Shown here one piece after another: positions 4,919 to 63,530 of a stretch of DNA of 64,000 bases. How positions within the stretch are numbered: the stretch's first letter is position 1; each line of letters begins with the position of its first letter. Origin of the DNA: Halomonas sp. H10-9-1 (GTDB taxonomy: Bacteria > Pseudomonadota > Gammaproteobacteria > Pseudomonadales > Halomonadaceae); assembly GCF_040147005.1 (NCBI RefSeq), contig NZ_JAMSHO010000001.1:1922001-1986000 (forward strand), read 5' to 3'. The notes beneath the pieces were generated by a model that was given only the letters and a program-made list of their open reading frames with translations, ran no database searches and was not told where the DNA came from. A program made the translations under genes and the position numbers.

Positions 4919-5578
4919 TCAGTCGAAGGTCATCTCCGGCACGTGGTCGGGCACCACCAGCTTGCCCGCGGTCAGCGACTTGATCTCCTCCACGGAGACA
5001 CCCGGGGCGCGCTCCTTGAGGTGGAAGGCACCGTCCTTGATCTCCAGGTAGGCAAGGTCGGTCAGCACCCGGCTGATGCAGCCGGCGCCGGTCAGCGGCA
5101 GGCTGCAGGACTCAAGCAGCTTGGACTCGCCATGCTTGGAGGCGTGGGTCATGGTGCAGATGATGTTCTCTGCACCGGCCACCAGATCCATGGCGCCGCC
5201 CATGCCCTTGATCAACTTGCCAGGGATCATCCACGAGGCGATGTTGCCGTTCTGGTCGACCTCGAAGGCCCCCAGTACGGTCAGGTCGACGTGGCCGCCC
5301 CGGATCATGGCGAAGGATTCCGCCGACGAGAAGATCGCCGCGCCCGGCCGGGCGGTGACGGTCTCCTTGCCGGCGTTGATCATGTCCGGATCGAGCTCTT
5401 CCTCGGTGGGGTAGCGCCCCATGCCGAGCAGGCCGTTCTCGGACTGCAGCATCACGTCGATGCCCTCGGGGACATAGTTGGCCACCAGGGTGGGGATGCC
5501 AATGCCCAGGTTGACGTAGAAGCCATCTTCCAGTTCACGCGCCACGCGCATTGCCATCTGTTCGCGAGTCAGTGCCAT
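4919..5578 (-). CDS. scoB: 3-oxoacid CoA-transferase, subunit B
   Basis: A 219-residue beta subunit of succinyl-CoA:3-ketoacid (acetoacetate) CoA transferase, which activates acetoacetate to acetoacetyl-CoA. The catalytic glutamate lies in LQSENGLLGMG (the SENG motif). The N-terminal NLGIGIPTLVANYVPEG and the glycine-rich GGAMDLVAGA are also typical. GAGG precedes the ATG. It follows scoA by 58 bases on the same strand. With the nearby bdhA-like gene this is a ketone-body (3-hydroxybutyrate) utilisation set. Whether succinate or acetate is the preferred CoA partner cannot be told by eye. Confidence 0.9.
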   Translation of the reverse strand: MALTREQMAMRVARELEDGFYVNLGIGIPTLVANYVPEGIDVMLQSENGLLGMGRYPTEEELDPDMINAGKETVTARPGAAIFSSAESFAMIRGGHVDLTVLGAFEVDQNGNIASWMIPGKLIKGMGGAMDLVAGAENIICTMTHASKHGESKLLESCSLPLTGAGCISRVLTDLAYLEIKDGAFHLKERAPGVSVEEIKSLTAGKLVVPDHVPEMTFD

Positions 5579-5636
5579 CTTCTTGCCTCTTTATTCGATG
5601 AGAAACGGTCGGTGAGAAACGCCAGCAGCGAGGAGA

Positions 5637-6338
5637 TCACGCCTCGCGCACGGTGCGCTTCTCGATGCGCTTCTCGAAGGAGCCCTGGATGATGCGGTCG
5701 ACGTAGATCCCCGGGGTGTGGATCTGATCGGGCGTCAGCTCGCCCGGCTCGACGATCTCCTCGACCTCGACCACGGTGATCTTGCCGCAGGTCGCCGCCA
5801 TCGGGTTGAAGTTCTGGGCGGTATCGCGATAGACCACGTTGCCGAAGCGATCGGCCTTCCAGCCCTTGATGATGGCGAAATCGGCGTGGAACGCCTCCTC
5901 GAGGATGTAGTGGCGCCCGTTGAACTCGCGCACCTCCTTGCCCTCGCCGATGGGCGTGCCGTAGCCCGTGGCGGTATAGAAGGCGGGGATGCCGGCGCCG
6001 CCGGCGCGCATCTTCTCGGCCAGGGTGCCCTGGGGCGTCAGGATCACCTCGATCTCATCGTTGAGCATCTGCTGCTCGAACAGCGCATTCTCGCCCACGT
6101 AGGAGGCATAGATGCGTGAGATCTGCTTGTCCTCCAGCAGCACTCCCAGGCCAAAGCCGTCCACGCCGCAGTTATTGGAGATGACGGTGAGATCCCTGAC
6201 CCCGAGTCGCTTGATCTCGGCGATCAGGTTCTCGGGGATGCCACAGAGACCGAAGCCACCGGCAGCGACCGTCATGCCGTTGTCGATGCCTGCCATCGCC
6301 TCTGCATAGGAGTTAACGCGCTTGTCGAATCCGGCCAT
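5637..6338 (-). CDS. scoA: 3-oxoacid CoA-transferase, subunit A
   Basis: A 233-residue alpha subunit that forms the enzyme with ScoB. The N-terminal [16 protein letters not shown] (CoA-binding glycine-rich loop), the [12 protein letters not shown] segment, the [15 protein letters not shown] block and a late [24 protein letters not shown] are characteristic. GAGG precedes the ATG. It is first in the two-gene operon and diverges from a LysR gene across 177 bases of AT-rich DNA, which suggests local LysR control. Confidence 0.92.
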
Positions 6339-45823: not shown

Positions 45824-47914
45824 TTATCCACGAAAAATATCCACCTTCGTCTCAAGGCACCTTCTCATGCTCAGATCATGCGCCCCTACCCCAAACCACA
45901 GATCAGGCTTCTGATAAAAATCCAGCCCGCGCCCGATCTTGATCATCCAGCCGTTGTCGATCCGAATCTCACGATCATGCATATTCTCGTTGACCAGGAT
46001 CTTCAGTTCGATATCCAGCTCCAGGAGGCTCTGCTTGAGCTCCTCGAAGCGTTCGTTGAGCATCTTGAGGTCGGTATCCTGGTCGTAGCTTGTCGTCAGC
46101 ACGATCTTGCGGATAGTGGGCGACTTGATCACGGCCTCACAGAAGCGCACGAAGTTGTGGATCTGGTGATTGGCTCTGATGTAGGGGTCCTCGATCTCAA
46201 CCTGCTTGGCACCCTGCAGGTAAGGCAGGATCAGCGCCTCATAGCTATAGCCGGTATCGCCATAGTGAATCGTGAAGTGCTGCTCCTCGGGCTCAGGTTT
46301 GGTCTCTGCTTCAATCGCCGGCGATGGTGGCTCTGTCGGCACTTCCACACCAGGCACCATGGGAGTACTGGTCTGTGTCTCGGCGGGCGTGTCGTCGGCC
46401 TCTTCCCCAGCGTGAATGTTACGCCGGCTTGGCTCCTGGGTGGCCGTGGCAGTCTTGGACTCTGGGCAGTAGACCACCACCTCCTTGCCTGAAGCCGTGA
46501 AGTAGGAGAGGTTGATACGCGAGAACTCGTCATCGGTCTTGCGCTTGTTCATCTGCTCCTTGACCCGGCGGCGCGACTCCACCGCATAGGCCACGTACTC
46601 CTCGAACTCCTCATCGCTCGGCTTGCCGTTGGGATGAAGAATCTTGAGGAAGGCACACAGCGTCTTCTTGATGCCCTTCTCGTCGCGCCCCTCCACGGCA
46701 TCGCCCAGCTTCACCCGGCTGGAGACCTCCTCGTAGCGGTTGGTCTGCTTGAACTGGTAGTGGAACGCCTCGGCCAGGTAGTCGGTGATAAAGCCGTAGT
46801 TGCCGGTCAGGAACTCGCTGCTGTTCTTGGGCATCTCCCAGCCAGGTAGGTAGCAGGCGAAGCGGTCCTGCACCGCCAGGTCGAACTCCTTGGGCAGCGG
46901 CTGGAAGAGGTCATACACCTCGGAGTTGACGATCTGCTCCACGGAGAGATCCAGGTTGCCCACATAGGCCATGGAGGCCTGGGCGATGACCTCGACACCA
47001 CGGGAGAAGCGGCCGTTGGCCATGAAGTCCTTCATGATCTGGATGGTGTCGGGATCCTTGATCTTGATCCCGCCGACCTCGTCGAAGGCCACGGTGTCCC
47101 AGTAGCCCACCAGGCCGATCTTGCGGCGTTGCACGTTGTAGAACAGGGTCGCCTTGGTGGCCTGTCCCCCGCTGATCAGCGTCGAGTAGGGCGAGAACTC
47201 GCTGTAGAAGTACGACTTGCCGGTGCCCCGCGGCCCCAGCTCGATGAAGTTGAAGTTAGGCTCGATCAGCGGTGCCAGGCGGGCGATGAAGTGGAACTTC
47301 ACGCGCTTGGTTAGACGGGTCGGCTCCAGGCCTACCGAGCGCAGGATGACGTCCATCCAGTCATCACGACTGAAGGCTTCGCGTCCCTCGCAGTAGCGGT
47401 CGAAGTCGAAACGGCTGAGCTGGATCGGACGCAGGTCCTCCACGAAGAAGGCGTAATCGTCATCCTCGATCTCGTTGTAGCCGATGGTCACCTCGGCCCA
47501 CAGTCCACCCTGAAGCAACCGCTCGTTGTCACGATAGAACTTCTCGCTGATCGCCACGCGGCGAGAATCGAAGTTCTCGAGGGCCGCCCAGTGGCGCCGG
47601 TCCTTCTCTACGTAGTTGACATGCACCTTGTCGATAAAGCGGTGCTTACCCTTGGTGGCCACCCGGGACTGGGCCGCGTTGGCCTCGTTGGGGCGCACGT
47701 AGTTGTCGTTGAGGGTATCCAGCACGGCCTCCATGCCGGCCTGGATCTCTTCCGGCTCGTCGCTGGCGCAGTAGCGCGCCAGCAGGAACTCGAGCACGAA
47801 GGTCGGCACGTTGGTGCCCTTCTTGATGCGGTGCAGGAGGTCCTTGCGAACTACCTTGCCATCGAACAGTGCGGTCAACTGCTGGTCGAGCTTATCCTGA
47901 TCAAACTGGTCCAT
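45824..47914 (-). CDS. brxL: BREX protein BrxL with an MITD1-like C-terminal domain
   Basis: A 696-residue AAA+ protein. The N-terminal BrxL domain (begins MDQFDQDKLDQQL) precedes the ATPase with Walker A GPRGTGKS (227-234) and Walker B WDTVAFDEVGG (about 272-282). After a Pro/Thr/Glu-rich linker (about 495-545) the last ~145 residues contain VEIEDPYIRANHQIHNFVRF, HDREIRIDNGWMIKIGRGLD and CLETKVDIFRG. These closely match my memory of human MITD1's C-terminal phospholipase-D-like domain. The Lon-like region usual in type 1 BrxL is not seen. BrxL is needed for BREX defence in characterised systems. The start is 3 bases after pglZ. Confidence 0.88.
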   Translation of the reverse strand: MDQFDQDKLDQQLTALFDGKVVRKDLLHRIKKGTNVPTFVLEFLLARYCASDEPEEIQAGMEAVLDTLNDNYVRPNEANAAQSRVATKGKHRFIDKVHVNYVEKDRRHWAALENFDSRRVAISEKFYRDNERLLQGGLWAEVTIGYNEIEDDDYAFFVEDLRPIQLSRFDFDRYCEGREAFSRDDWMDVILRSVGLEPTRLTKRVKFHFIARLAPLIEPNFNFIELGPRGTGKSYFYSEFSPYSTLISGGQATKATLFYNVQRRKIGLVGYWDTVAFDEVGGIKIKDPDTIQIMKDFMANGRFSRGVEVIAQASMAYVGNLDLSVEQIVNSEVYDLFQPLPKEFDLAVQDRFACYLPGWEMPKNSSEFLTGNYGFITDYLAEAFHYQFKQTNRYEEVSSRVKLGDAVEGRDEKGIKKTLCAFLKILHPNGKPSDEEFEEYVAYAVESRRRVKEQMNKRKTDDEFSRINLSYFTASGKEVVVYCPESKTATATQEPSRRNIHAGEEADDTPAETQTSTPMVPGVEVPTEPPSPAIEAETKPEPEEQHFTIHYGDTGYSYEALILPYLQGAKQVEIEDPYIRANHQIHNFVRFCEAVIKSPTIRKIVLTTSYDQDTDLKMLNERFEELKQSLLELDIELKILVNENMHDREIRIDNGWMIKIGRGLDFYQKPDLWFGVGAHDLSMRRCLETKVDIFRG

Positions 47915-47917
47915 GGC

Positions 47918-50443
47918 TTACACCGTATAGTCCGTTTCAAGGTCGATCTGGCTGTAGACAGTATGGGTCCTGGGGTCCAGGGCCTTCACCTTGAACCTGC
48001 CCTCGTATTCCATCTGCATCTTCAGGTTCACCTTCACCGCTTCACCCGGTTGCAGGCTCAGCGTGCCCGTCGCCGGGTTCACCGGGCCGGTCGCCCTGGC
48101 CTCGCCAACCACATTGCCCTTCTTGTCCTGAGCCTCGAGCAGAATCTCGTAGCTGCCCTCGCCGGAGAACATGTCGGCCGCCTCGACGGCCACATCGATC
48201 ACCGGTACCCGGGTGGTGATCCGCGTCGCACCCTGCTTGTAGCTGATGCTGATGCTGGCACGTTTCACGCTGGGCTGCTCATGGCTTCTAAGCTGCATCC
48301 GGATCACCGGCACAACACACTCCTGGAGTGAAAGGCCGCCATGGAAGTACTGCAGGCCGGCCCGGTAAGGCGCCATGGTGAGCGGAGCCGCCAGCCTCGC
48401 CGCATTGCTGCGTATTCCGAGGCGCTCGGTCTCCATCACCAGGTGATGGTCATCGGCCGAGCCATCACCCAGTGCACAGCGATCGTGAACGATCAGCCAG
48501 TCACCATGCGGCTTGGTGGCCACATCACCGGCGCCAGCATGGCTGTTCATGTAGAACCCATGGTCGGTGGCGATCACCACCTCATGGAAGCCATGGTCGA
48601 CCAGGCGGTTCACCGCCATGCGGATACGCTTCAGCGCATTGGTGATCTGTGCCGGAGCCGTCTCGGGGTGGTTCTCGAAGTGGCTGTCGATCTCCACGGA
48701 GCGCAGCACCAACAGATCAGTCTCGGGGTCGACCTCGGCCCCCTTGTTACGCACAAAGTCCTCGAGGCGCATCTCGGCGAAGCGCTGCCCGTAGCGACGC
48801 CGGAAAGCGTCCATACGCTGAGCCACGGTCGCTACCGGCTTACCGTCCAGCATGGGTACCACCCCATCCTCGCCCTTCTCCACTGTCAGCTGGTCATCGG
48901 CACCCGGTAGCAGGCTGGCCATGCCCACCGGTGTCACGCTGGGGAGCTGAGCCAGTGACGGCTGCATCTCGATCGAGCCGTCGTCAGCCAGCTGCTTCTC
49001 GAGTGCCACGCCCAGCTCATAGCGCAGTGCATCCACCATGAAGTAGGCAACCCGGTGGCCGTTCTGCTTAAGCTGGGGGGCCACAAGACGATCGAAGGCC
49101 TGGGTATTGGCCAACATGCCGGCCAGCGGCCACCCCGTCTTCTTGATCAGTCGCATGAAGCATTGCTGGGCCGACTCCGCCAGGTTGGCGTAGCACTTAC
49201 GGGCGCGCTGGATCAGCGCTGACATCTCGCCGCGAGTGTCTTGCCACACGTAGTCGCTGACCGCCTGCTCGAACTCACGATGCAGACGATCCATCTCACG
49301 TAGAGCGCCCACATAGAACTGCACGAGACCTTCCAGGCTATCGGAGTACTCCGGCAGGCGCTGCTCGAGGTCGTCGCAGACCTGAGCGAGCGACGCCGCT
49401 GAATCGACCAGGTACCACTTCTCCCTGCTTTCCCCCTGGGCCGTCCATACGGAACGCTCATGCTGGCCCAGGATGCCACGTACCCGCTCGATATCGCCCT
49501 GCTCGAAGGCCGCCATAGCCTGCTGCAGAAAAGTCCGCTCCTCGAACGGGAAGGTATCGCGCACCCCCAGATCGGTCAGTGCCCGGCACTGATCCGGCAG
49601 GTTCAGATCAGCCTCGATCTCCTCGGCCTTCTCGATATAGAGGTCCTGGCTGCGCCGATCATTGCGCAAGGTATCGCACAAACCTTCGATGATCGGGCGT
49701 ACCCCCTCCTCGCCCCGGGGAATGTCGGCCAGGGCCTCGGGCAGTGACTCCGGCAGGTCAAACACGAACTCGCTGAACAGCACGAAACGCCACAGCTCAT
49801 CGGCGATGGAAGACCAGGTCTTGCCGCGAGTACGCAGCTTCAGCCCCAGGGTACGCTTGAAGAGATCTCGCGCTTCACTCACCCAGGCATCATTGGCTTG
49901 CAGCGCCTCGAGCTGATGGGTGTCCGGCGCCATCAACCCCAGCAGGATGTCGCGGCTGGATTCCGCACCCAGCTGCGCGCGCAGGTTAGGCCAGCCCACA
50001 CCGCCACCCACGGCATCGATCACAGCGAAATCGGGGTTGGCATCCTCGGCGAAGAGACGACGGATCTCCTCAGCATGCTCCGGCTTGGCCTTGAGGCACA
50101 GCGACTGGAAGCTGTCACCGTCGCCATCCGGAAAAACCCCGCCGCAGGCCGCGAAGGGAGAAAACGGGTCGACCTGCTTGTGCTCCTCATCCACAGGGGC
50201 CTTCATCGGCACGTACACCAGCAGGCTCTTGATCTCGTTACGACCCAACGCCTGGAGAGAACACATCGCCTGTTCCCGGCTCTCGATGCTGCTCTCGGTG
50301 GCGTCCACCACTACTGTGGAATCACTCGCCAGCCCCTGGCACAGCCGGCGATAGCGAATCTCGGGGTCATAGACCACCACGACCGAGCTCATACGCAGCC
50401 GCTCGGCCAGCACCTGCTCCTGGATGTAGGCCTCGATACTCAT
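47918..50443 (-). CDS. pglZ: BREX phosphatase-like protein PglZ (type A)
   Basis: An 841-residue alkaline-phosphatase-superfamily protein. The metal-binding aspartate lies in HRVAYFMVDALRYELG (about 469) and the second metal site in VVIATDHGFYMNSHAGAGD (about 626). The N-terminus (VVVYDPEIRYRRLCQGL) and the beta-rich C-terminal domain fit PglZ of type 1 BREX. PglZ is required for methylation and defence in studied systems. brxL follows after 3 bases, and the DUF262 gene lies 60 bases upstream. Confidence 0.9.
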   Translation of the reverse strand: MSIEAYIQEQVLAERLRMSSVVVVYDPEIRYRRLCQGLASDSTVVVDATESSIESREQAMCSLQALGRNEIKSLLVYVPMKAPVDEEHKQVDPFSPFAACGGVFPDGDGDSFQSLCLKAKPEHAEEIRRLFAEDANPDFAVIDAVGGGVGWPNLRAQLGAESSRDILLGLMAPDTHQLEALQANDAWVSEARDLFKRTLGLKLRTRGKTWSSIADELWRFVLFSEFVFDLPESLPEALADIPRGEEGVRPIIEGLCDTLRNDRRSQDLYIEKAEEIEADLNLPDQCRALTDLGVRDTFPFEERTFLQQAMAAFEQGDIERVRGILGQHERSVWTAQGESREKWYLVDSAASLAQVCDDLEQRLPEYSDSLEGLVQFYVGALREMDRLHREFEQAVSDYVWQDTRGEMSALIQRARKCYANLAESAQQCFMRLIKKTGWPLAGMLANTQAFDRLVAPQLKQNGHRVAYFMVDALRYELGVALEKQLADDGSIEMQPSLAQLPSVTPVGMASLLPGADDQLTVEKGEDGVVPMLDGKPVATVAQRMDAFRRRYGQRFAEMRLEDFVRNKGAEVDPETDLLVLRSVEIDSHFENHPETAPAQITNALKRIRMAVNRLVDHGFHEVVIATDHGFYMNSHAGAGDVATKPHGDWLIVHDRCALGDGSADDHHLVMETERLGIRSNAARLAAPLTMAPYRAGLQYFHGGLSLQECVVPVIRMQLRSHEQPSVKRASISISYKQGATRITTRVPVIDVAVEAADMFSGEGSYEILLEAQDKKGNVVGEARATGPVNPATGTLSLQPGEAVKVNLKMQMEYEGRFKVKALDPRTHTVYSQIDLETDYTV

Positions 50444-50503: not shown

Positions 50504-52705
<2,202 letters not shown>

Positions 52706-52762: not shown

Positions 52763-52827
52763 TTGTGGCTTATCAATGCGCCACAAACAACCTTGTGGCT
52801 CATGAAAGCCCATTCCATGAGCCACAA
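52763..52827. repeat. Array of alternating TTGTGGC inverted repeats
   Basis: Four half-sites in alternating orientation: TTGTGGC (52763-52769), GCCACAA (52780-52786), TTGTGGCTCATG (52793-52804) and CATGAGCCACAA (52816-52827). The last two form a perfect 12-bp inverted repeat with an 11-base spacer, the first two a 7-bp repeat with a 10-base spacer. The array fills the 125-base gap between the ATPase gene stop and the DUF262 gene. It could be an operator for a dimeric repressor, or hairpins acting as a terminator (on the minus strand TTTTT follows the second stem). Confidence 0.75.
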
Positions 52828-52830
52828 AAT

Positions 52831-54288
52831 CTATGACTTCACCGGTTTAACCCCGCCCTTGCGCCTGAGGCCATAGCCGACCCGATAGACGTCCGGCAGG
52901 TTGATCCGACCATCCTTCAAGCGCTCCATCAGTCCCAGCGCCACTAGGTCATGAAGCACGCCATCGGGTCCTTCGTCGATATGTAAGGGGGGGAGTCGGA
53001 CCGCGTCGGCATCAATCCCCTGCTGCAGGGCTTCCAGAGCGCCGCTATCTCGCCACTTCTCATGGATGTCGGCCATGTCAGCCGGAACCGACTTCCCTTC
53101 AAGGGGGGCGAGCAGGGTACGAATCCAAGGGTAGTCTTGCTCTATCTCCTGAACGCGAATCCGGGAGGCTTCCTGCACACCACGCTTGATGCTCTCGAAA
53201 TGCAGTGCCGTCTCCTGCTGCGGCCGGGGCGAATCTTCGGCGGCCTTCCTCAAAGCGGCAAGGAAGCTACGCGGACTCACCTCGCTACGCGAGTCCGCCA
53301 GGTGATTGGGCAGCCAGGTATAGGGAAATCCACGACGCTTATCGCGACCCATCCAGGGGCCGGTGATAGCATGAAACACTTGTCGCTGTATGCTTTCTTC
53401 AGATCGCATTGCCTCCGGCACACGCCATGCTTCATTGACTTGTTGCCAAGTGATACCGGGCACACATTCCGTCGCCCCTTCACGAAACAGCTCCCCACCA
53501 TGTTCAGCGTTAGCCAGGTACTGCCAGAGCAGGCCGTACAGATCACGGCGTAGCCACTCCAGAGTCACTTTCTGTGCCATCACCTTGGCGGCATCAGGAA
53601 AGCTGATCACGGCCGCATCCTCCAACTGATCTGGGCGCACGAACACCTTGAGGCGGATGGCTCGGTAGGGCCTGAAATCCAGGATCATCTGCAGCAGGCC
53701 GCGCAGCAGAGCATTCATCTTGTGCCAATCATCGGCGCTACGATCCAGAGCATCGAAGAGCACTAGATGCATGGCACCCTGCAGTTGCAGCCGCTGGTCG
53801 CACTCGTAGAGGCTCTGCTCGAGCTGTTCAGGGTGGTGCGAAAGCCACTCAATACGGTCTGCCCAACCGCTGAGGGTGGAGAACTCGGGCGGCGCCAGCT
53901 CCCCCATCACCTGTTGAAAGATCACGGCCTGCCAGATACGCCAGGCATCATAGTCGTCCAGAAGCTTAATCAGGCTAGATTTTCCCGGGAAATGAGCGCC
54001 TGGCGGTTGCTCGCTGAAACCAGTAGTCACAATGCACTGCTTTGGAAATCCTGCCGCCTTACCCAACAAATTGCGCAGTTCTGCACTCTGTAAGGCGGCA
54101 TACCAGAAGCTCTTGCCGGAGCCAGGAATACCTTGCACCAGCATGTTATTGGGGTTCAGTGCTTTGGCATGAATGGCAGGCAAGTAGAGGTGCTCTGCCT
54201 GCGGCGCCTCTCCATGCAGGGAGGTATCGGCGGGCAGCGCCGAACGCAGCGTCTCACGTAGAGACTCAGGGAAGCGATACGACGTCAT
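52831..54288 (-). CDS. P-loop ATPase with KAP/STAND-like Walker B
   Basis: A 485-residue ATPase. Walker A is GIPGSGKS (53-60). A Walker B-like strand reads HLVLFDALDRSADDW, close to the DDLDR style of KAP and STAND NTPases. C-terminal to it are a helical region and LHIDEGPDGVLHDLVALGLMERLKDGRINLPDVYRVGYGL, which looks like a winged helix. I do not recognise a named family. The start at 54288 overlaps the preceding ATPase stop by 4 bases (ATGA). Tight coupling to the HEPN-like and KGGVGR genes suggests one functional complex inside the BREX operon. Confidence 0.7.
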   Translation of the reverse strand: MTSYRFPESLRETLRSALPADTSLHGEAPQAEHLYLPAIHAKALNPNNMLVQGIPGSGKSFWYAALQSAELRNLLGKAAGFPKQCIVTTGFSEQPPGAHFPGKSSLIKLLDDYDAWRIWQAVIFQQVMGELAPPEFSTLSGWADRIEWLSHHPEQLEQSLYECDQRLQLQGAMHLVLFDALDRSADDWHKMNALLRGLLQMILDFRPYRAIRLKVFVRPDQLEDAAVISFPDAAKVMAQKVTLEWLRRDLYGLLWQYLANAEHGGELFREGATECVPGITWQQVNEAWRVPEAMRSEESIQRQVFHAITGPWMGRDKRRGFPYTWLPNHLADSRSEVSPRSFLAALRKAAEDSPRPQQETALHFESIKRGVQEASRIRVQEIEQDYPWIRTLLAPLEGKSVPADMADIHEKWRDSGALEALQQGIDADAVRLPPLHIDEGPDGVLHDLVALGLMERLKDGRINLPDVYRVGYGLRRKGGVKPVKS

Positions 54289-55595
54289 GATCTCTCCTCG
54301 GCAGTGGCAGACATCACCCACTGGTCGGCCAATTCCATGAACCGGCCAAGGGACTCCTGCGCCGTTCGCGCATCGATGCCGCCCTCGGCCGGGTCGAACT
54401 CCTGTAGCGCGCGGTGCCAGAAGATTGGCCAGGGGGCGTGGGGCGCAGCCTCATCGTGAAGATCGAAGGAAAATGCCTCGAGATCGTCTGGCTCTGCCTG
54501 GTCATAGAGCTGATCACGAAAAACGTCCCAGGCGTGCTCCCCATATCGGCGTAGGTACTCATCACGCCCGGTCTCGGGCACCAGGCTGGCCACCATCTGC
54601 AAGCGGTGACGGAAGGCCGATACGTTGGGGTGACGGTTCCAGTGCTCGAACAGCATCCGGTAGCCGGCCCAGGTCTGGGCGGAATCGATGCCAAACAGCA
54701 AGGTATCGGCATCCATACGAGTGACCAGCACCGCCGCGATATCATGAAGGCCGGCGCGGCTATCGAGAATCACCACGTCGGGGGCGTGGCGTTGCTCCAG
54801 TGACTCCACCAATCGATTCAGGCGCTCTGCCCAGGACATCGGCTGGCTGCCGCTGAACTCGGCATAACAGCGCGCCAGCTTGGGCAGGTAGCCACCGGTC
54901 AGGCGGCCATAGGCCGGCACCACCATCACCTCACCTGCCAGCTCCTGAGCCAGCGGGCTGATGCCGACAAGCTCGGGCTCAATCACTTCCGCCTGGCCCA
55001 CGCCGTCTTCCACGAACCAATCCACGGCTCCGAAGTCCGGCAGATGCTCCACCGGCAGCAGGGTGCTGCTGACACCCGGCGACTCCAGGTCGAGGTCGAA
55101 CACCAGCACGCGCTTGCCCTGCTCGGCCAGGTGCCATGCCCAATTGACCAGCGCCGTGGAGCGGCCCACGCCCCCCTTGATGCCGTAGAAGGTCACCCGC
55201 GGGTTGGTACTCGTGCGCACCAGCGAGTCGCGCATCCAGTCCTGGCCAATCACCTGGCGATCCAGCAAGTAGAGCTTCACCTCCTCCTCGACGCCCGGCA
55301 CAGGCCTACGCTCACCCAGGATTGCCCTAGGCTCGGTCAGTTCTTCCTCGAACAGCAGAGCGCGCTCGGGTGGAAATCCATACCGGCCGAGAGTTTCGTA
55401 TAGTGCCTGGCGATAGCCATCCAGCGAAGCCTTCTCGAGCTGGTCACGTTGGCCACTCAACACCGGGCGAATGCGGCCGCGCAAGTCGCGTACCAAGGTG
55501 ATCTCGGTGAGAATCTCGCGTCCCCACCGCAGCGAGACATCGACCGCACGTTGCAGAGCGTCGTGAAAGAGCACCGTTGCCTTTTGATTATTCAT
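54285..55595 (-). CDS. KGGVGR-variant ParA/MinD-type ATPase
   Basis: A 436-residue protein. About 135 N-terminal residues with no motif I know precede a deviant Walker A, GIKGGVGRSTALVNWAWHLA (K140 to T147). The usual GKT/GKS lysine is Arg while the signature first lysine is kept. VLVFDLDLESPGVSSTLLP and DVVILDSRAGLHDIAA follow, as in SIMIBI ATPases. The start chosen is the ATG at 55595, overlapping the HEPN-like stop by one base (TGATG); a longer frame would run into that gene. KGGVGR-variant ATPases recur near defence genes in my memory. Its output is unknown. Confidence 0.75.
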   Translation of the reverse strand: MNNQKATVLFHDALQRAVDVSLRWGREILTEITLVRDLRGRIRPVLSGQRDQLEKASLDGYRQALYETLGRYGFPPERALLFEEELTEPRAILGERRPVPGVEEEVKLYLLDRQVIGQDWMRDSLVRTSTNPRVTFYGIKGGVGRSTALVNWAWHLAEQGKRVLVFDLDLESPGVSSTLLPVEHLPDFGAVDWFVEDGVGQAEVIEPELVGISPLAQELAGEVMVVPAYGRLTGGYLPKLARCYAEFSGSQPMSWAERLNRLVESLEQRHAPDVVILDSRAGLHDIAAVLVTRMDADTLLFGIDSAQTWAGYRMLFEHWNRHPNVSAFRHRLQMVASLVPETGRDEYLRRYGEHAWDVFRDQLYDQAEPDDLEAFSFDLHDEAAPHAPWPIFWHRALQEFDPAEGGIDARTAQESLGRFMELADQWVMSATAEERS

Positions 55596-56017
55596 CACAG
55601 AACCCCATCGAGCATGGCCTCTTGCAGGCAGGTTCGAGCTATGCCAGCACCACAGACATGGACCCATACCGCGCCTTCCTGTATGTCGCTGCTGCTGGCA
55701 TAGCGATCATTGACGCTCCAGCCATCAAAAGGAGCCGAGGCGCCACTGAGGATGGCAGCATAACGGGCACCATCACGATCAGTAGCGAAAGTTTGAAATT
55801 CATCCCATAGCTTGTCGATGTGAACTCTGTGCCTTCCCACTGCCGGGGCACCGGTAGTCTCATTCAGCTGCATTCCCAAGCCCAGCATAATCGCCTTCAA
55901 CGAACACTCGGCCGACAGGCCCAACAGATGATCCGCGTTCGCAATGCGACCATCTTGGTGCAGAAAGTGGGCGTCTTCCCAATGCCGCTCGGCAGCGTCG
56001 GCGAAATCCGGGTTCAT
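55595..56017 (-). CDS. Small HEPN-like protein
   Basis: A 140-residue helical protein. The N-terminal AAERHWEDAHFLHQDGRIANADHLLGLSAECSLKAIMLGLG, a central GRHRVHIDKLWDEF and late NDRYASSS resemble HEPN-domain proteins of the nucleotidyltransferase-associated kind. A canonical RNase motif (R-x4-6-H) is not clear, so catalytic activity should not be assumed. It overlaps pglX's second ORF by 4 bases (ATGA) and the next ATPase by one base, giving a translationally coupled set. HEPN proteins are frequent toxins or sensors in defence systems. Confidence 0.5.
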   Translation of the reverse strand: MNPDFADAAERHWEDAHFLHQDGRIANADHLLGLSAECSLKAIMLGLGMQLNETTGAPAVGRHRVHIDKLWDEFQTFATDRDGARYAAILSGASAPFDGWSVNDRYASSSDIQEGAVWVHVCGAGIARTCLQEAMLDGVL

Positions 56018-57957
56018 TCACTGCTCCCTGTGCTTTTCTTACGGCCACGCGTCTTCTTGGGCGCCGGCTCGGGTTCGACGTAGAGGTGCTCGAGGTCATG
56101 GGCGATGGCCAGCGACTTGTCAGTGACACACTTCTCGCGCACCCGTTCCGGCCAGTAGGCCATGGCCAGGTGGGCCCAGTCGTAGTCGCCCTGCTCCAGC
56201 TTTTCCCAGGTCTCCTTCAGCACCTTCTGCCACGGCTTGTGGCGAAACAGCGGCCAGAGCGGCGCGGCGGTGATCTGCACGCCGTCGTCGTGGTTGGGCT
56301 TGTAGCCTGGGGCGATCTTCAGCAGGGTATCGCGCAGGTCGGCCAGCTCGTCGCGGAAGTCGCTCAGCTCCTCCAGGCGCTTCTCGTCGGCGCGGCTGCG
56401 GCTGGCGCCTGCCAGGCGCAGGTTGCCCAGCTCGCTCTCCAACTGCTTGAGCTTAGGCTCGACGAAGTCGTTGACCCCGGTGAAGAGGGTCTGGTCGGTC
56501 AGATCCGGGTAGTAGAGCCACAGGGTGTAGCTGCCCGAGGCCGTGGCCAGCGGCCAGTAGATCGGCGCCTTGCGGCGGCTCTTGGAGTACTGCTGCAGGT
56601 GGTACTTGAAGAAGTCACGGCGTAGCCAGCGGCGCAGGTCCTCATCGACCTGGGCATCTACCGTCTCCAGTACATCGGCCATCAGGCGTGGCAGGTCATG
56701 CTCATGGCCCGGATCATCGACCAGGATGCCAGTGTGGCGATGGTAGGGCTTGTCACCGTCGGGGAGCATACCGGGGCTCTTGGCCGGAAGCGGGTCGAAG
56801 GGGTCCGGCTCGGGTGGGGCTTCGCGCTCGCCGGTGGCCAGGCGCCAATCGAAGCGGCCGAAGGCGACGCCAGCCGCCCAAGAAATCTGCGGGTCAAGTG
56901 ATGAAGTACTAAAGCATTCATCAAGCTCATCACTTCCCTTAACCAACTGTATTAACTCATCCTCACCAAAGTCGAAATCATAATCTCGATCTTCATCGGA
57001 GAAGCCGTACAATTCATAACATATCTCATCAATCCTCCTCTGCAGATTACCAACTTCCTCCTTTAAATTTTTTGACCTTATATCATATAACCTTTCAAGC
57101 AGTGCGACAGGCATCAAAAAGGCACGAGAGCACTCATCAAATTCTCCAATACTTCTTTTTTTAGACCATGCCTCTCTTGCCAAAAACGACAACTCTTTAT
57201 AAGCTTCATCTGTAAAACTCGGAACTGGAGTAGTCTCAACCAGCCCAACCTCATAAGATCTAGCAGCCGCATCTGCAGCAGCTAGCCTAGCTTCCACAAG
57301 CTCGCAAAATGGCCTTGAAGAACATACAGCCAGCATTACCAAAAGATGACTGTCATCATCATAATCACAGAATATAGACGGACCTTTATCAGCAAATATA
57401 CACCCCGCAGGCATAACCCTCATGCTTAGCCCGCTGGTAGTTCTTCTGGGCCATGTAATACCTGGACGAAAAAATTGAGAATGGCCATTAAGAGCCGCAG
57501 ACCAATTATATCCCCAGCCTTTACTCCCCCTGTACTCAGAAACAAATTCTTTTATCTCATAACCATCGTTTTCCCAATTTATAACAAGCGGCCATTCGGT
57601 ATAGTAAGTTGAAAAGCTACCACCCTTAGGCATTACAACCCATGATGACCCATTTTCCGTTGACTTTCTTGAATTAGCAAAACGGGTCTCACTTACCTCC
57701 CAAAAAAGTCGTAAAAAACGAAAGTCATCTCCAGATGTAGCTCCGGACTGAACATCTCGACCAGAAGATTCTAACGAAGGGCGATCGGAGGAAAAAACTT
57801 GCTTTACTGAACCTTTAATCCAATAAGAAAAAGGCGAACCTGGAATTTCCAAGAAACTATAGGGATCAATGCACACCCCCCCCTCCCCACTTCTAACAAC
57901 ATTAAGCAGGTGAGTTTTTTTATCTTTCTCCTCCACCAAGCGGATAAATTTAGTCAT
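56014..57957 (-). CDS. pglX: BREX methyltransferase PglX, C-terminal part (split gene)
   Basis: A 647-residue protein that continues PglX directly. It starts TKFIRLVEEKDKKTHLLNVV just where the methyltransferase fold of the previous ORF stops (AAYVLERKV). Its first ~355 residues (DNA 57957-56890) are encoded by visibly AT-rich DNA and contain the expected target-recognition region; the rest, ending in a Lys/Arg-rich tail (PKKTRGRKKSTGSSE), is GC-rich. GGAG stands 8 bases before the ATG and the ATG overlaps the previous stop (ATGA). Together the halves make ~1,280 residues, near the usual PglX size. A sequencing frameshift cannot be excluded. Confidence 0.8.
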   Translation of the reverse strand: MTKFIRLVEEKDKKTHLLNVVRSGEGGVCIDPYSFLEIPGSPFSYWIKGSVKQVFSSDRPSLESSGRDVQSGATSGDDFRFLRLFWEVSETRFANSRKSTENGSSWVVMPKGGSFSTYYTEWPLVINWENDGYEIKEFVSEYRGSKGWGYNWSAALNGHSQFFRPGITWPRRTTSGLSMRVMPAGCIFADKGPSIFCDYDDDSHLLVMLAVCSSRPFCELVEARLAAADAAARSYEVGLVETTPVPSFTDEAYKELSFLAREAWSKKRSIGEFDECSRAFLMPVALLERLYDIRSKNLKEEVGNLQRRIDEICYELYGFSDEDRDYDFDFGEDELIQLVKGSDELDECFSTSSLDPQISWAAGVAFGRFDWRLATGEREAPPEPDPFDPLPAKSPGMLPDGDKPYHRHTGILVDDPGHEHDLPRLMADVLETVDAQVDEDLRRWLRRDFFKYHLQQYSKSRRKAPIYWPLATASGSYTLWLYYPDLTDQTLFTGVNDFVEPKLKQLESELGNLRLAGASRSRADEKRLEELSDFRDELADLRDTLLKIAPGYKPNHDDGVQITAAPLWPLFRHKPWQKVLKETWEKLEQGDYDWAHLAMAYWPERVREKCVTDKSLAIAHDLEHLYVEPEPAPKKTRGRKKSTGSSE

Positions 57958-59855
57958 ACCTTTCTCTCCAACACATATGCGGCTGCTTCCACCATGGCGT
58001 CATCCATCACACCATGCCCCAGATCCACCACAATCTCAGGGAAAGAATTTCCTAAGACTACTTGTTCACGCCATTTACGATATGTAGTAAGGAAGAAGCA
58101 GGTACGAGATGTGATCGCTCCTAGTCGTCCGCCTTGGCGCATCATTTCCAAACCACGCTCGACGAAAATTGCCAGCAAGTCATTTTTGCTGTTGGGATAA
58201 CCCTTACCCAATTTAGCTTTAACGCCGGCACTAAGCGCGCCGAACGGCGGATTCATCACTACCACATCGAAAACCACACGGCAGAGATCGATCATCCTCA
58301 AACCCTGCAACGCATCCTGAGCAAACAGCCGGCTCTGGTAGGTGGCGCCGGCTTCCTCGGAGAACTCGACCAAGGCCCGGCGCAGGCGCTCCTCGGCCTT
58401 CTGCCAGGTCTCCTGCTCCTGCTCGGCGAAAAGATCGCTGCCCTTGCCCACATAGACCTGGCGGATCAGCGCGGGGAGCTCCTTCTCGGCGCGCAGCAGC
58501 ACGCCGAGCTCGGGCAGGCCCTTGAGCATCTGCAGGGTCTTCTCGAAGAGCTCGGCATCTTGGGAATCCAGACGCTCGGCGAAGGCTTCACGGAGTTCCT
58601 TCTCGGCGGGTGGGGCTACGGCGGCGATGACGTTGCCCTGCCCCACGTCCGGGCGCTCCAGGGCTGTCACGCCGTCCTCATGCCAGGTGCGCTGGGCGCG
58701 CAGCCACAGCGCCAGCGAGGCGATCTGGGCGGCACGGGGGTCAATGTCCACCCCGTAGATGTTGTGCTCGATGATCAGACGCGGCACGTCGCGCAGCAGG
58801 GCCCCCTCATCGGCATAGGTGTGGCAGAGGGGCTCAAGGCCAGCTTCCGGCTGGGTGGAGACGTCCAGCGAGCCAGGGCCGTGTTGCTGCTCCCACTGCC
58901 AGGCGTCGCGGTATATCTGCAGGAAGAGATCGAAAGCGTAGAGGCCGAAGTGCATGGAGCCACAGGCCGGGTCCAGCAGCTTGAGGGTACGCGGGTCGCG
59001 CAGCTTGACTCCTGCCTCGGGCTGCTCGTCGGGCTTCACCAGCAGGTACTGACAGCTGTCGCGCAGCGGCGTGGTGCCGCCGGTGGCGTTGAACCATTGG
59101 CGACCCAGGGTGTTGTCGACCAGGAACTCCACCACATAGCGCGGGGTGAAGAACTGGTTGCGCACCGCCAGCTCCCGGCTGTTGCGCGGTGCCTGGCTTG
59201 CCTTGCGCATCGCCTTGCGCTCTTCCTGGCTGTTGAAGTACTGGTAGATCCAGCCAATGGTCTCATCCAGCGCCCACAGCGGCTCGATCTCGTGGTCGTT
59301 GAGCAGCGCCAGCAGTTCGTTGAGCGCCGTCTCACGGGGGAAGAGCCGCCCTTGGGGCGCGAAGCGGTCGAATAGCGCCGGCAGATCGAGGGCGAACTCG
59401 TCGAAGAGGCTGAACAGGAAGGTCTGGTAGGCCTCGCCGGTCTCCCCCAGGGCGGTGCCGGCCACATGACGATAGAGCTCGAAGGCCTGGGACTGAACAC
59501 CCTGGCTGACGGCGGGCAGCAGCAGTCCGCGCGCCTCCATCATCAGCAGCGCCGCCAGGCGGTTAAGTACGGTGAAGGCCTGTTCGCGGATGATGCGTTG
59601 GATGGCCGCCTGGCGCTGCGCCTTGCTCTCACCTTCCCCTGCCAAGTAGTGCGCCAGCGTTTCACGTAGCAGTGCAGCGGTGTGGCGCTCACGGTCGGTC
59701 AGATGGGTCAGCCGAGAGAGTTCGGTCACCTCGCCGGTGCGGGGGTCGAGGCCGTAGTCCTGCTGCAGCTGCAGCGTGAACTCGTCGGTCAGTGTCTTGC
59801 GACAGTCGCTGACCAGGCGCTGCAGACGGTTGCGTGTACCTTGATCGAAGGCCAT
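57954..59855 (-). CDS. pglX: BREX methyltransferase PglX, N-terminal catalytic part
   Basis: A 633-residue protein holding the SAM-binding and catalytic motifs of an adenine-N6 methyltransferase. Motif I is LLDPACGSMHFG (295-300) and motif IV is NPPFG (535-539). NIYGVDIDPRAAQIASLALWLRA and VVDLGHGVMDDAMVEAAAYVL are PglX-like. It methylates host DNA and marks self in BREX. It ends where a single-chain PglX would continue, and the next ORF overlaps by 4 bases. The GC content drops right after the NPPFG motif. It starts 3 bases after brxC. Confidence 0.87.
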   Translation of the reverse strand: MAFDQGTRNRLQRLVSDCRKTLTDEFTLQLQQDYGLDPRTGEVTELSRLTHLTDRERHTAALLRETLAHYLAGEGESKAQRQAAIQRIIREQAFTVLNRLAALLMMEARGLLLPAVSQGVQSQAFELYRHVAGTALGETGEAYQTFLFSLFDEFALDLPALFDRFAPQGRLFPRETALNELLALLNDHEIEPLWALDETIGWIYQYFNSQEERKAMRKASQAPRNSRELAVRNQFFTPRYVVEFLVDNTLGRQWFNATGGTTPLRDSCQYLLVKPDEQPEAGVKLRDPRTLKLLDPACGSMHFGLYAFDLFLQIYRDAWQWEQQHGPGSLDVSTQPEAGLEPLCHTYADEGALLRDVPRLIIEHNIYGVDIDPRAAQIASLALWLRAQRTWHEDGVTALERPDVGQGNVIAAVAPPAEKELREAFAERLDSQDAELFEKTLQMLKGLPELGVLLRAEKELPALIRQVYVGKGSDLFAEQEQETWQKAEERLRRALVEFSEEAGATYQSRLFAQDALQGLRMIDLCRVVFDVVVMNPPFGALSAGVKAKLGKGYPNSKNDLLAIFVERGLEMMRQGGRLGAITSRTCFFLTTYRKWREQVVLGNSFPEIVVDLGHGVMDDAMVEAAAYVLERKV

Positions 59856-59858
59856 GAC

Positions 59859-62800
59859 TTACTCCTTGTCGCTATTCTCGGGGGCCTCATCGAAGGCGAC
59901 GTCCAGCTCGAAGGCGTGGGCGTACTCCAGCTCGCCGCGCAGCTTCTGCAGCTCACGGATCATGGCGTCGAGGGTGTCCAGGGAGGTGATGCGTGAGCGC
60001 GTCTTGAAGCGCCGGGTGAGCACCTTCTTGTTCTCCTGGCACCCCTCTTGCTCCTCCTCGAGCTCCTTCTGCTCCTCGCGGATACGCTCCTGCTGGCGCT
60101 CGCGGCCGACCCGCTCGATATGCTCCTTGAGGGAGGCCAACTCCGCCTGGAGCTCGTAGTCACGGTTGACCAGACGCTTGAGCCCCTCGATATCAGTCGA
60201 GGCTTCCAGCGCCAGCGTATCCAGACGGCCGAGAAGGTCCTGCTGTTCCTGATTGGTCAGCTCAGGCCACTCCGGCACCCGGGCGAGCTCCTGCTCCGCC
60301 TGGCGCAGCCGCTGCTGCTGCTGTTCCTGCATGCGCTCGGTGGCCTGGCGTACCTGGCTGCGCAGCTCGGTGAGGCGGGTATTGAAATCCGAGGCGCTGC
60401 GGTACGCCTCCTCGGAAGCCAGGCGCGTCGCGATCTCCTTTAGCGGTTCGGCCAGTTCGGCCTTCAGCTCGCCAGGAATGCCGCTGCCGGGCAGCCCTTC
60501 GATGGCCTGGGCCAGAGCACGCAGTTCCTTCAGGGTGTCCTCTAGGCCCTGCTCGAGCGCCTTCTTGAGCTCGGCCGCCCAGGTCAGGTTGTCATAGAGG
60601 CTGGATTCCTGCCGGCCCAACCGCTGGGGTGCGTCGGAGCCATCGGTGAGCAGGATGTCCGCCATGTCACGCCCCATCGCCTCCAGGCGCTCGTCACCGG
60701 GAAGCCCCAGCGCCTGCAGGCGTCCGGAAAGCGAGGCATAGCGCTGCTGAAGCTGAGGGAAGAGCTTGGTGGCCGCCTTGCTGATGGCATCCTCCAGCGG
60801 CACCACCATATCGCCGCTCAGCTCGGTCAGACGCTTGGCCGCCAGCGCCAGCATCTCCATGGAGGGGCGGTCTTCGCGCAGCGAGATCCCCACGTTCTTG
60901 AAGGCGTTGTTGCTCTTCAGTGCCTCGATGGCCTGCTGGCCGTTGACGGTCACCTCGCGCCCCGAGACCTTCAGCTTGATCACCCCGCCGACCAGCATGG
61001 CGGCCACCAGGTAGCGCAGGGTGTCCTGGGACCAACCGTAGGGGGCATCGCTGAAGCGACTTGAGAGGCTCTTGCCCTCCACCATGCCGACCCGGTCGAT
61101 GTGGTCGCGGACGCTGACCAGGGCACGATGGTCGGTGTTGATACCGGGTTGGCCCCCCTGTTGGGTCACCAGGCCCAGGGGGTCCAGCTTGGTGGTGATA
61201 CCGCTGAGGTTGCCCACACGCAGGAAGCGCTCGGCCAGGTCGCTCTGCACCCGCTCGGGAGCCTCGCCATAGCGACTGAACACCTGACCTGCCACGCCAG
61301 CCAGCTGCTTGCGCGCGGCCTCGGGCAGTTCGCCGGCCAGGCTCTCCACCGCCGTGGTTTGCCCGCGGAAGATGAAAGAGCCCTGGACCAGGCTGCGCTT
61401 GATCAGCCGCTGCAGGTCGGCGCCCAGACGGCTAGCGCGCTCGAGCTGGGCGCGGCAGTAGTCGCGCACCTCCTGGTCGGGGTCATGGCGGAACTTGGCG
61501 TCGATCTCCTGGCAGCGATAGATGTCCGCGGTGAGGTCATCCAGTTCGGGCGACTTGCGCCCCACCAGGTAGATCAGGTTCTCGTTGGCCTTGACCCGGG
61601 AGTCGTCCTGGAGGCGCGAGCGAGCGGCATCGTAGTCGGTGGGTTCGACCAGCTCGATCACCGTCTGGATGGGATGGCGGTCCCCCGCCAGGGAGGTAGG
61701 CAAGCCCTCGGGGCCCTGGGTCTTGAGGCCGGTCTGCACGGAGAGCGAACCATGCAGCTGGGTGCTGGGCAGCGGCGAGAACACCTCCTCCAGCGCGCGG
61801 TTGAGGATGCGCTTCATTTCCACGCCGCGCAGCGGGATCTGGGTGCGCTCCTGCTCGATGTCGTTGAGCTTCTCGCTGAAGAAACAGAGGAAGCCATCCT
61901 GCTCGCCGAAGGGCACGATCGAGTCACCGATCAGCTCCTCGATGGCGGCATTGATCTCCTCCGCCTGGCTGCCACTGGCTACCTCGGAGTGGATCAGGCT
62001 CGCGACGTTGCGCCGGGTAATCGGCAGGTTGCCGAGGATCTGCAGCACGGCCACTGTCTTGGCGATGCGCTGGGGCAGCTCGGCGTCGCGATAGCGGATC
62101 TTGGTGACCGTATTCACGGCCTTGTGCCAGTTGGGGAAGGCGCGCTCGATATCTTTCTCCAGGGCGTCGTAGAGGGTCACCGTGGTGGCCAGCCAGCCCA
62201 CCGGCTGGTCGGCGACGGGTATGCGCTTGCCATCGCCCTCGATCAGGATGTCCTGGATCACCTTGATGGCCGAGCGCAGGCCGATGCCGCCGGTCGAGCG
62301 CGCCAGCGCCCCCAGCAGGTGCAGCAGGATGTCGAAATGCGCCGGCAGGAAGGGGTAGAGGTCGATGAAAGTCTGGCGATCGAAGTCGGCCCCGTAGGCG
62401 CGGGCATCCTCCAGCTTGGTGTTGTGGCGCAGCGCCTGGCCGTACTGGTCGAACAGCTCACCGAGCTGCTTGGCTCCGTCCGGCGACTTGCCGAGCAGGC
62501 GGGTGTAGCAGATCTCCTTGATGTCATCGGCCTCGAGGTCGATGGAGATCGGGAAACGGTCCTTGAGTTTGAAGAGCTCCGGTGAGTTGAGCGAGGCCCG
62601 CGGATCATCCTCGGTCAGAGTCTGCTGGCCGGTGCCGATCAGCCACACCTTGCCGTTGCCCTGGGCCTTGATGTTCTTGGCCAGGCCATCGAGGTTGAGA
62701 ATCAGCGGCTGGCGCGCCCCCACGTACTGCCCCACCTCGTCGACGATGAAGATCACGTGCTCCTTGCCGGAGTGCTCGCGCACGATGTCCAGCATCTCCT

Positions 62801-63530
62801 GCACACGATCATTCTCGAAACGGATCACCTCACTGGTGGCGGTATTGAAAGAGGCCGGAGTGGTAAAGAGCGAGGGGTAGAGCTCGTGGGCGATCTCCGG
62901 TATCAGGCTATCGACCACCAGCTCGTCGTTGCGATAGTCACGCCAGGCCTCGCCACCGGTCTTCTCCTCGAAGAGCGTGAGGAACTCCTCATAGCGGCCC
63001 TCCTGCTTCAGGCGACGCTCCAGGGAGGCCACCTTGAGGTTGCGCGAGTAGCCGGCCCACTGCAGCACCTTGTAGTAGAGGACGCTGGAGACCTCCTCCA
63101 TGGTGGCACCACTGACCTGCTCGGTGGCCAGGTCCAGCATCAGCACCGCGGCTGGGAAGCGTTTGGCCACGGTACTCAGCAGCTGCCGGGTGGTGGTGTT
63201 CTTGAGACGGTCCTGAAGGTGCTGGCGGAAGGGCACCCCGTCGATGGTGACGCTGTCGTCGAAGGCCAGGCCGAGGTACTTGGTGAAGGAGCTCTTGCCC
63301 GAGCCGTAGAAGCCCGATACCCAAACGCCGACCTCATTCTCGCCACCGGCTTCCATGGCGACCTGCATCTTGGTCAGCAGCTGGTTGAACTGCTCGTCGA
63401 TGGCGTCGGTGACCACATACTCGGAGATCTCCTTTCTCAGGCGCTCCTCCTGGGAGACACCGTAGGCGATCACCTTCTCGATGCTGCGGTAGATATCGCG
63501 GCTGGGGTCAAAAAGCTGTTTGATTTCCAT
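59859..63530 (-). CDS. brxC: BREX P-loop ATPase BrxC
   Basis: A 1,223-residue ATPase. It begins MEIKQLFDPSRDIYRSIEKV, with Walker A GFYGSGKSSFTKYLG (73-87) and Walker B HVIFIVDEVGQYVG (about 260). A long helical region with coiled-coil stretches rich in Gln and Glu (about 1060-1180) follows. This is the layout of BrxC/PglY, the large ATPase found in all BREX types. AAGGAG precedes the ATG, 14 bases after the brxB stop. pglX follows after 3 bases. Confidence 0.92.
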   Translation of the reverse strand: MEIKQLFDPSRDIYRSIEKVIAYGVSQEERLRKEISEYVVTDAIDEQFNQLLTKMQVAMEAGGENEVGVWVSGFYGSGKSSFTKYLGLAFDDSVTIDGVPFRQHLQDRLKNTTTRQLLSTVAKRFPAAVLMLDLATEQVSGATMEEVSSVLYYKVLQWAGYSRNLKVASLERRLKQEGRYEEFLTLFEEKTGGEAWRDYRNDELVVDSLIPEIAHELYPSLFTTPASFNTATSEVIRFENDRVQEMLDIVREHSGKEHVIFIVDEVGQYVGARQPLILNLDGLAKNIKAQGNGKVWLIGTGQQTLTEDDPRASLNSPELFKLKDRFPISIDLEADDIKEICYTRLLGKSPDGAKQLGELFDQYGQALRHNTKLEDARAYGADFDRQTFIDLYPFLPAHFDILLHLLGALARSTGGIGLRSAIKVIQDILIEGDGKRIPVADQPVGWLATTVTLYDALEKDIERAFPNWHKAVNTVTKIRYRDAELPQRIAKTVAVLQILGNLPITRRNVASLIHSEVASGSQAEEINAAIEELIGDSIVPFGEQDGFLCFFSEKLNDIEQERTQIPLRGVEMKRILNRALEEVFSPLPSTQLHGSLSVQTGLKTQGPEGLPTSLAGDRHPIQTVIELVEPTDYDAARSRLQDDSRVKANENLIYLVGRKSPELDDLTADIYRCQEIDAKFRHDPDQEVRDYCRAQLERASRLGADLQRLIKRSLVQGSFIFRGQTTAVESLAGELPEAARKQLAGVAGQVFSRYGEAPERVQSDLAERFLRVGNLSGITTKLDPLGLVTQQGGQPGINTDHRALVSVRDHIDRVGMVEGKSLSSRFSDAPYGWSQDTLRYLVAAMLVGGVIKLKVSGREVTVNGQQAIEALKSNNAFKNVGISLREDRPSMEMLALAAKRLTELSGDMVVPLEDAISKAATKLFPQLQQRYASLSGRLQALGLPGDERLEAMGRDMADILLTDGSDAPQRLGRQESSLYDNLTWAAELKKALEQGLEDTLKELRALAQAIEGLPGSGIPGELKAELAEPLKEIATRLASEEAYRSASDFNTRLTELRSQVRQATERMQEQQQQRLRQAEQELARVPEWPELTNQEQQDLLGRLDTLALEASTDIEGLKRLVNRDYELQAELASLKEHIERVGRERQQERIREEQKELEEEQEGCQENKKVLTRRFKTRSRITSLDTLDAMIRELQKLRGELEYAHAFELDVAFDEAPENSDKE

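Follow-up and report, generated by a model that had tools for sequence, protein, structure and literature searches.

Within a bacteriophage exclusion (BREX) operon of Halomonas sp. H10-9-1, in a 64,000-nucleotide stretch of contig NZ_JAMSHO010000001.1 (hereafter the window), lie three coupled genes that we refer to as A, B, and C, and which encode, respectively, a protein with a HEPN fold, a KGGVGR-variant ATPase, and a STAND/Cdc6-ORC-like ATPase. The best explanation, to which we assign a probability of about 0.5 as a whole, is that this trio is a three-gene anti-phage candidate, autonomous and mobile, which travels as cargo of a BREX-1-type operon, is translated together with that operon, and would act through a switch mechanism. 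The parts of this reading differ in strength: that the trio is an autonomous cargo module is highly probable, an anti-phage role is probable, and the scheme by which the switch would reach its output is tentative.

A conserved trio that matches a catalogued candidate

Direct reading of the sequence confirmed three intact, coupled genes on the minus strand at 52831..56017, joined by the overlaps ATGA (pglX and gene A, ORF1), TGATG (gene A and gene B, ORF2), and ATGA (gene B and gene C, ORF3). These are the overlaps read in an initial annotation of this DNA, which had proposed a coupled unit of HEPN protein, KGGVGR ATPase, and second P-loop ATPase within BREX. The start of gene B is most likely the ATG at 55595 (436 amino acids) rather than position 55667, and that of gene C, which ends at 52831, is most likely the ATG at 54288 (485 amino acids) rather than the GTG at 54321.

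The PADLOC models PDC-M28A, PDC-M28B, and PDC-M28C match genes A, B, and C over nearly their full length (144, 487, and 595 bits). The trio already figures in the catalogue as a candidate, and the window adds a new member to it. The initial annotation had held that the system could not be named, a statement that no longer stands, and had raised the prospect of a named BREX accessory module; the catalogue does list the trio, though as a candidate in its own right and not as a BREX accessory. In its accessible text, PMC12988326 traces the PDC and HEC names to a "guilt-by-embedding" screen and describes certain HECs as proven antiviral and most PDCs as awaiting validation. A literature search, outside which lay preprints and most subscription journals, found no paper on the trio, its mechanism, or a test of it. 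Beyond what the catalogue lists, the analysis adds that the trio is independent of BREX, that it occupies a junction used for cargo, that C can be read as STAND-like, that A lacks the RNase motif, and that a wider family of fused relatives exists.

With gene B as anchor, a scan of genomes yielded 476 confirmed relatives and 80 loci, in which A and C were detected with hidden Markov models (HMMs) built for the purpose. Gene A was present in 77 of these loci and gene C in 79, and in 77 the three genes were adjacent on one strand in the order A-B-C, as they are in the window. When gene C was searched in a phylum sample, 27 of 398 genomes had a match at E ≤ 0.001; in 19, the source genome included, the score exceeded 300 bits. 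Genes B and A adjoined C in 18 of the 20 C-anchored regions, which came from 18 genomes (five of the 20 being contigs shared with the B-anchored set). Given that order and strand are shared in the B-anchored loci and that B and A adjoin C in most C-anchored regions, the association goes beyond chance, and the co-occurrence check suggested in the initial annotation returned A, B, and C as a unit. The two C-anchored exceptions, L120 and L128, have gene C without A and B; in L120, a PDC-S47 gene (5373-6200) lies directly upstream of this lone gene C.

Of the 12 plasmid records with gene B coverage of 80% or more, ten were also examined, and A, B, and C were detected by HMM in all ten, with C cut by the record end in one (L193). 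No match was found by blastn between the trio DNA of Enterobacter and 20,395 E. coli records, or by tblastn between gene B and 50,697 phage records.

Occurrence of the trio with and without BREX

BREX genes adjoin 16 of the 80 B-anchored loci (four BREX-1, 11 BREX-2, and one brxC-trio-pglX arrangement; L065, with BrxL on the opposite strand, is left out of this count) and 10 of the 43 loci with at least 5 kb on each side, where lack of BREX means that none was detected within the stretch that the contig shows. Three of the ten plasmid records carry the trio in BREX-2, and the remaining seven have no BREX genes within the stretch shown. The trio is thus neither general in BREX operons, being missing from the BREX loci L170, L175, L179, and L180, nor confined to them, as a core component would be, and the proportion of 16 in 80 speaks against a BREX-only accessory.

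Where it is embedded in BREX, the trio is found at four junctions: pglX-pglZ (the window, L007, L008, and L012), pglX-pglY (for example L003 and L042), pglW-pglX (a Streptomyces plasmid), and brxC-pglX (L039). The content of the pglX-pglZ junction itself varies among the examined BREX operons with a PglZ nearest to that of the window (L173 and L174, BREX loci with a more distant PglZ, were left out of this survey). The window has the trio and a GmrSD-type gene; L007, L008, and also L012 have the trio alone, with no GmrSD gene seen between gene C and PglZ in L007; L170 has PDC-M45A/B/C; L179, a Thioflavicoccus plasmid, has a UPF0175-DUF3368 pair, with Helicase-DUF2290 between its PglX halves; and L180, a Hymenobacter plasmid, has a SEC-C protein. 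In the more distant operon of L175 the junction is empty, with PglX and PglZ 15 bases apart. These operons illustrate how unrelated immune modules are carried by BREX at defined junctions; the GmrSD gene that adjoins the trio in the window is a second embedded unit.

In a quick tree of 95 C proteins, the BREX label changed seven times, compared with 18.3 times in shuffles; BREX-1 copies need three changes and BREX-2 copies also three (two of them forced by well-supported branches), on a tree in which 31 of 92 inner branches are weakly supported and the rows labelled as having no BREX include short contigs. On these label changes, BREX gained the trio more than once. On the same tree, the BREX-2 copies form almost one clade, so the association can be stable, which weighs against full independence. 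This near-clade would suit an accessory that detects when BREX is active or is inhibited by phage, adds an output, and works only with BREX, as would the tight translational coupling of the trio to pglX and the auxiliary and back-up effectors, HEPN proteins among them, that the accessible text of a 2026 survey places within BREX loci (Rakesh and Krishnan 2026; PMC12839542). We nevertheless consider such an accessory unlikely, given the small share of B-anchored loci with BREX, the seven plasmid records with none, and the variation in junction and BREX type among trio loci. The initial annotation had offered modification of BREX and independent back-up as alternatives; as there are trio loci in which no BREX genes were detected, and as the trio occupies four BREX junctions, independent back-up is the better supported of the two and modification the less so, in line with an autonomous cargo module.

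In five of the seven plasmid records without BREX, the nearest annotated gene upstream of A is an integrase, and in two it is not. When the integrases from these five plasmid loci were searched among the loci, the only trio-bearing matches were L005 itself and L077 (3.5 kb away), and the plasmid records are therefore the basis of the link to integrases. Methylococcaceae loci (L028, L029, L030, L035, and L041) have the trio flanked by mnmA and purB, found in six and five loci respectively and each named from one representative; in E. coli this position is that of hflD. The mnmA-trio-purB arrangement, the integrases beside plasmid copies, and the relationship of gene B to ParA/MinD would all be compatible with a housekeeping or plasmid/element-maintenance switch, comprising a ParA-like and toxin-like pair that is often on mobile DNA and has no part in defence. 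We hold this to be very improbable, as strong gene C matches are patchy (19 of 398 genomes in the phylum sample and 6 of 151 in a sample of the family Methylococcaceae, the latter ruling out a core Methylococcaceae gene), embedding in BREX is repeated, and C is in places fused to a phosphoesterase-NACHT unit that resembles PADLOC effectors.

Folds and conserved motifs of the three proteins

Gene C models as a STAND/Cdc6-like core, as found in animal and plant immune switches (CED-4, plant NLR), and not specifically as KAP. Its predicted structure has the nucleotide-binding, helical, and winged-helix arrangement of the STAND/Cdc6-ORC class, and its Walker A motif is normal, with G53, G56, G58, and K59 invariant in 66 aligned proteins. 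The "KAP-like" label of the initial annotation is doubtful: no KAP family appeared at E ≤ 1 in a Pfam scan of gene C, the filters of which drop weak matches, and the nearest listed solved folds are STAND/Cdc6-ORC; one homologue is, however, annotated by NCBI as "KAP family NTPase". We prefer the STAND/Cdc6-ORC class to the KAP assignment, which lacks Pfam support. Against the Sll1717-family P-loop ATPase model (NF047389), gene C scores 59 bits, under the cut-off of 75. Sequence searches of the PDB returned no informative relative of gene A or gene C.

Gene B, which is related to ParA/MinD, passes the NCBIfam model for KGGVGR-variant AAA ATPases (NF047398) with 189.3 bits against a cut-off of 90. 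Its motif, KGGVGRST, retains the first Lys and has Arg in place of the second, the P-loop Lys, in all 22 aligned proteins, so that the substitution noted in the initial annotation holds throughout. KGGVGR ATPases are a large family with an odd P-loop, of which at least 2,230 relatives were scored.

Gene A has the HEPN four-helix fold, and its closest folds in a structural comparison include the HEPN domain of sacsin, a nucleotide-binding domain. HEPN endoribonucleases carry the motif R-x4-6-H. At the conserved R105, in the C-terminal half, this motif is absent from the window protein and from 66 of 80 homologues, is present in the other 14, and occurs in none of the 16 proteins of a mixed set that includes distant relatives; a canonical HEPN RNase is accordingly rejected as stated, and for the HEPN-like protein of the initial annotation, the fold is upheld and the canonical motif is mostly missing, so that an RNase effector would be no more than a possibility. 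R11, H12, H66, R105, and Y106 are conserved in 80 of 80 homologues, a pattern that would suit a binding site just as well as an active site of a non-classical kind.

The module might accordingly have the same three parts and yet use A as a non-catalytic adaptor or sensor that binds nucleotides or proteins, with the output lying in the B-C ATPases (for example through membrane, DNA, or filament action) or in host targets. The scarcity of the motif and the likeness to sacsin would fit such a role, as would the phosphoesterase and NACHT domains that some C proteins carry of their own. The five invariant residues are, however, what would be expected of an active site, and 54 of 80 homologues have R24-x5-H30, although it stands where helix 2 begins and not at R105. 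We give this alternative a low probability.

Fused relatives and a possible switch mechanism

In L135, B and C form a single frame of 930 amino acids, and weak gene C matches in frames of 870-1,000 amino acids proved to be single-chain KGGVGR::STAND proteins of a distant family. We examined the loci of 10 of the 18 weak matches (L181-L190, with L181-L184 being near-copies), and in all ten an ORF of 123-149 amino acids lies directly upstream on the same strand. One of the ten upstream ORFs has a Pfam HEPN match above the cut-off and three more have matches below it (E ≤ 0.01), and three of the five that were scanned with PDC-M28A match it weakly (E ≤ 0.01); these profile matches show the HEPN identity of the upstream ORF only in part. 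A different extension is found in Magnetococcales, where gene C has about 1,300 further residues with a calcineurin-like phosphoesterase and NACHT (L024, L128). Gene C proteins of 1,300-1,800 amino acids from this group (L024, L027, L037, L128, and L129) occupy five rows that make up one clade.

Based on these folds and fusions, we tentatively propose that gene C would be a STAND-type ATP switch, with an NLR/apoptosome-like core that lacks sensor repeats of its own and is similar to the cores that form wheel-like assemblies in the immunity of animals and plants. Since some relatives have B and C as a single polypeptide, we infer that B pairs with C as one ATP-gated switch, in which B may set the nucleotide state of C or report a phage cue. 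The B-C complex would then release or assemble the HEPN protein A as output, or A might serve as an adaptor, and the output would stop growth of the infected cell, either once BREX has been bypassed or with no dependence on BREX.

It is possible, though rather doubtful, that the trio represents an undescribed class of immune switch, in which a ParA-type ATPase whose P-loop carries Arg gates a STAND ATPase of the apoptosome/NLR kind, and the latter acts via a HEPN protein other than a classical RNase. The wider family would then have a two-gene form (a HEPN-sized ORF and KGGVGR::STAND) matching the catalogue B and C models weakly, and copies would have entered BREX more than once. A listed candidate is moved to a testable model of a small NLR-like switch encoded by three cloneable genes, and, if this model is true, KGGVGR ATPases would gain a first role. 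The interpretation given in the initial annotation is, overall, partly supported.

Genomic surroundings in the window

Table 1 Positions of the trio and of surrounding features in the window
Feature	Position	Strand	Description
BrxL (BREX core)	45824..47914	-	BrxL_ATPase 400 bits, MIT_C 169 bits; C-terminal phospholipase-D-like domain
PglZ (BREX core)	47918..50443	-	PADLOC PDLC02561, 1235 bits
GmrSD-type (DUF262/DUF1524) gene	50504..52705	-	GmrSD_N 108 bits, GmrSD_C 30 bits; PADLOC HEC-05 340 bits
Two tandem palindromes TTGTGGC...GCCACAA	52763..52827	.	Between gene C and GmrSD gene
ORF3 / gene C	52831..54288	-	STAND/Cdc6-ORC-like ATPase with small C-terminal module at its end, 485 aa; PDC-M28C
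ORF2 / gene B	54285..55595	-	KGGVGR-variant SIMIBI/ParA-type ATPase, 436 aa; PDC-M28B; PDLC04559 486.6 bits
ORF1 / gene A	55595..56017	-	HEPN-fold protein, 140 aa; PDC-M28A
PglX C-terminal half	56014..57957	-	PADLOC PDLC02532, 686 bits; ATGA coupling to gene A
PglX N-terminal (methyltransferase) half	57954..59855	-	PADLOC PDLC02527, 923 bits; Eco57I Pfam
BrxC (BREX core)	59859..63530	-	PADLOC PDLC02483, 1877 bits

BrxA and BrxB also belong to the surrounding operon, the ends of which are partly outside the window. PglX is encoded by two overlapping ORFs (56014-59855) with an ATGA junction, the C-terminal half having a PADLOC model of its own; PglX is likewise split in L008 and L179 and is a single ORF in L007. 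The palindromes have only two sites genome-wide, both of them at 52763-52827, with a folding z of -4.48, and, standing at the boundary of the trio and GmrSD units, they are possibly a regulatory element or an insertion scar. A second BREX locus in the source genome, at about 2,381-2,400 kb (L171), has a different PglX, PglZ, and BrxL type. In L172 (2532-7455), upstream of brxA, the BREX operon is adjoined by a Fic-like gene, PDC-S24, and by a large helicase that resembles DpdE/ZorD.

Comparison with known systems

The window trio has the gene order of the other PDC-M28 matches scanned; PDC-M28 is a catalogue entry, and the fused two-gene relatives match its B and C models weakly. A precedent for cargo in BREX is BrxU, which the accessible text of PMC8565348 describes as a GmrSD enzyme encoded between brxC and pglX of pEFER that is sufficient alone, has a phage range different from that of BREX, and protects independently of PglX in a manner complementary to BREX. 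On that description, BrxU is like the trio in being a non-core gene within a BREX operon, and differs in being one nuclease at brxC-pglX, whereas the trio is a three-gene ATPase-HEPN unit. The auxiliary effectors in the accessible text of Rakesh and Krishnan 2026 are similarly non-core genes inside BREX operons; the HEPN protein there is a stand-alone one, listed as an endoRNase among nuclease back-up effectors, whereas that of the trio mostly lacks the canonical motif, and the terms "KAP", "SIMIBI", and "MinD" are absent from the accessible main text of PMC12839542.

MNT-HEPN toxin-antitoxin systems and AbiV share the HEPN fold with gene A, and AbiV and HEPN toxins are among the rows of its fold comparison. 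The trio differs from them in its mostly absent motif, in AbiV scores that are under the cut-offs (22.4 versus 27.1 bits in Pfam, 17 versus 27 bits in NCBIfam), and in lacking a nucleotidyltransferase partner; no such gene adjoins gene A, which rules out an MNT-HEPN pair. Closest to gene C are the STAND/NLR switches CED-4, Dark, NRC4, and RPP1 and the archaeal PAB2304, with which its predicted ATPase core aligns over about 290-320 residues at 10-12% identity and a root-mean-square deviation of 5.6-6.6 Å. Unlike these switches, the gene C protein of the window has no sensor repeats or effector domain, and its partner, B, belongs to another ATPase class, SIMIBI.

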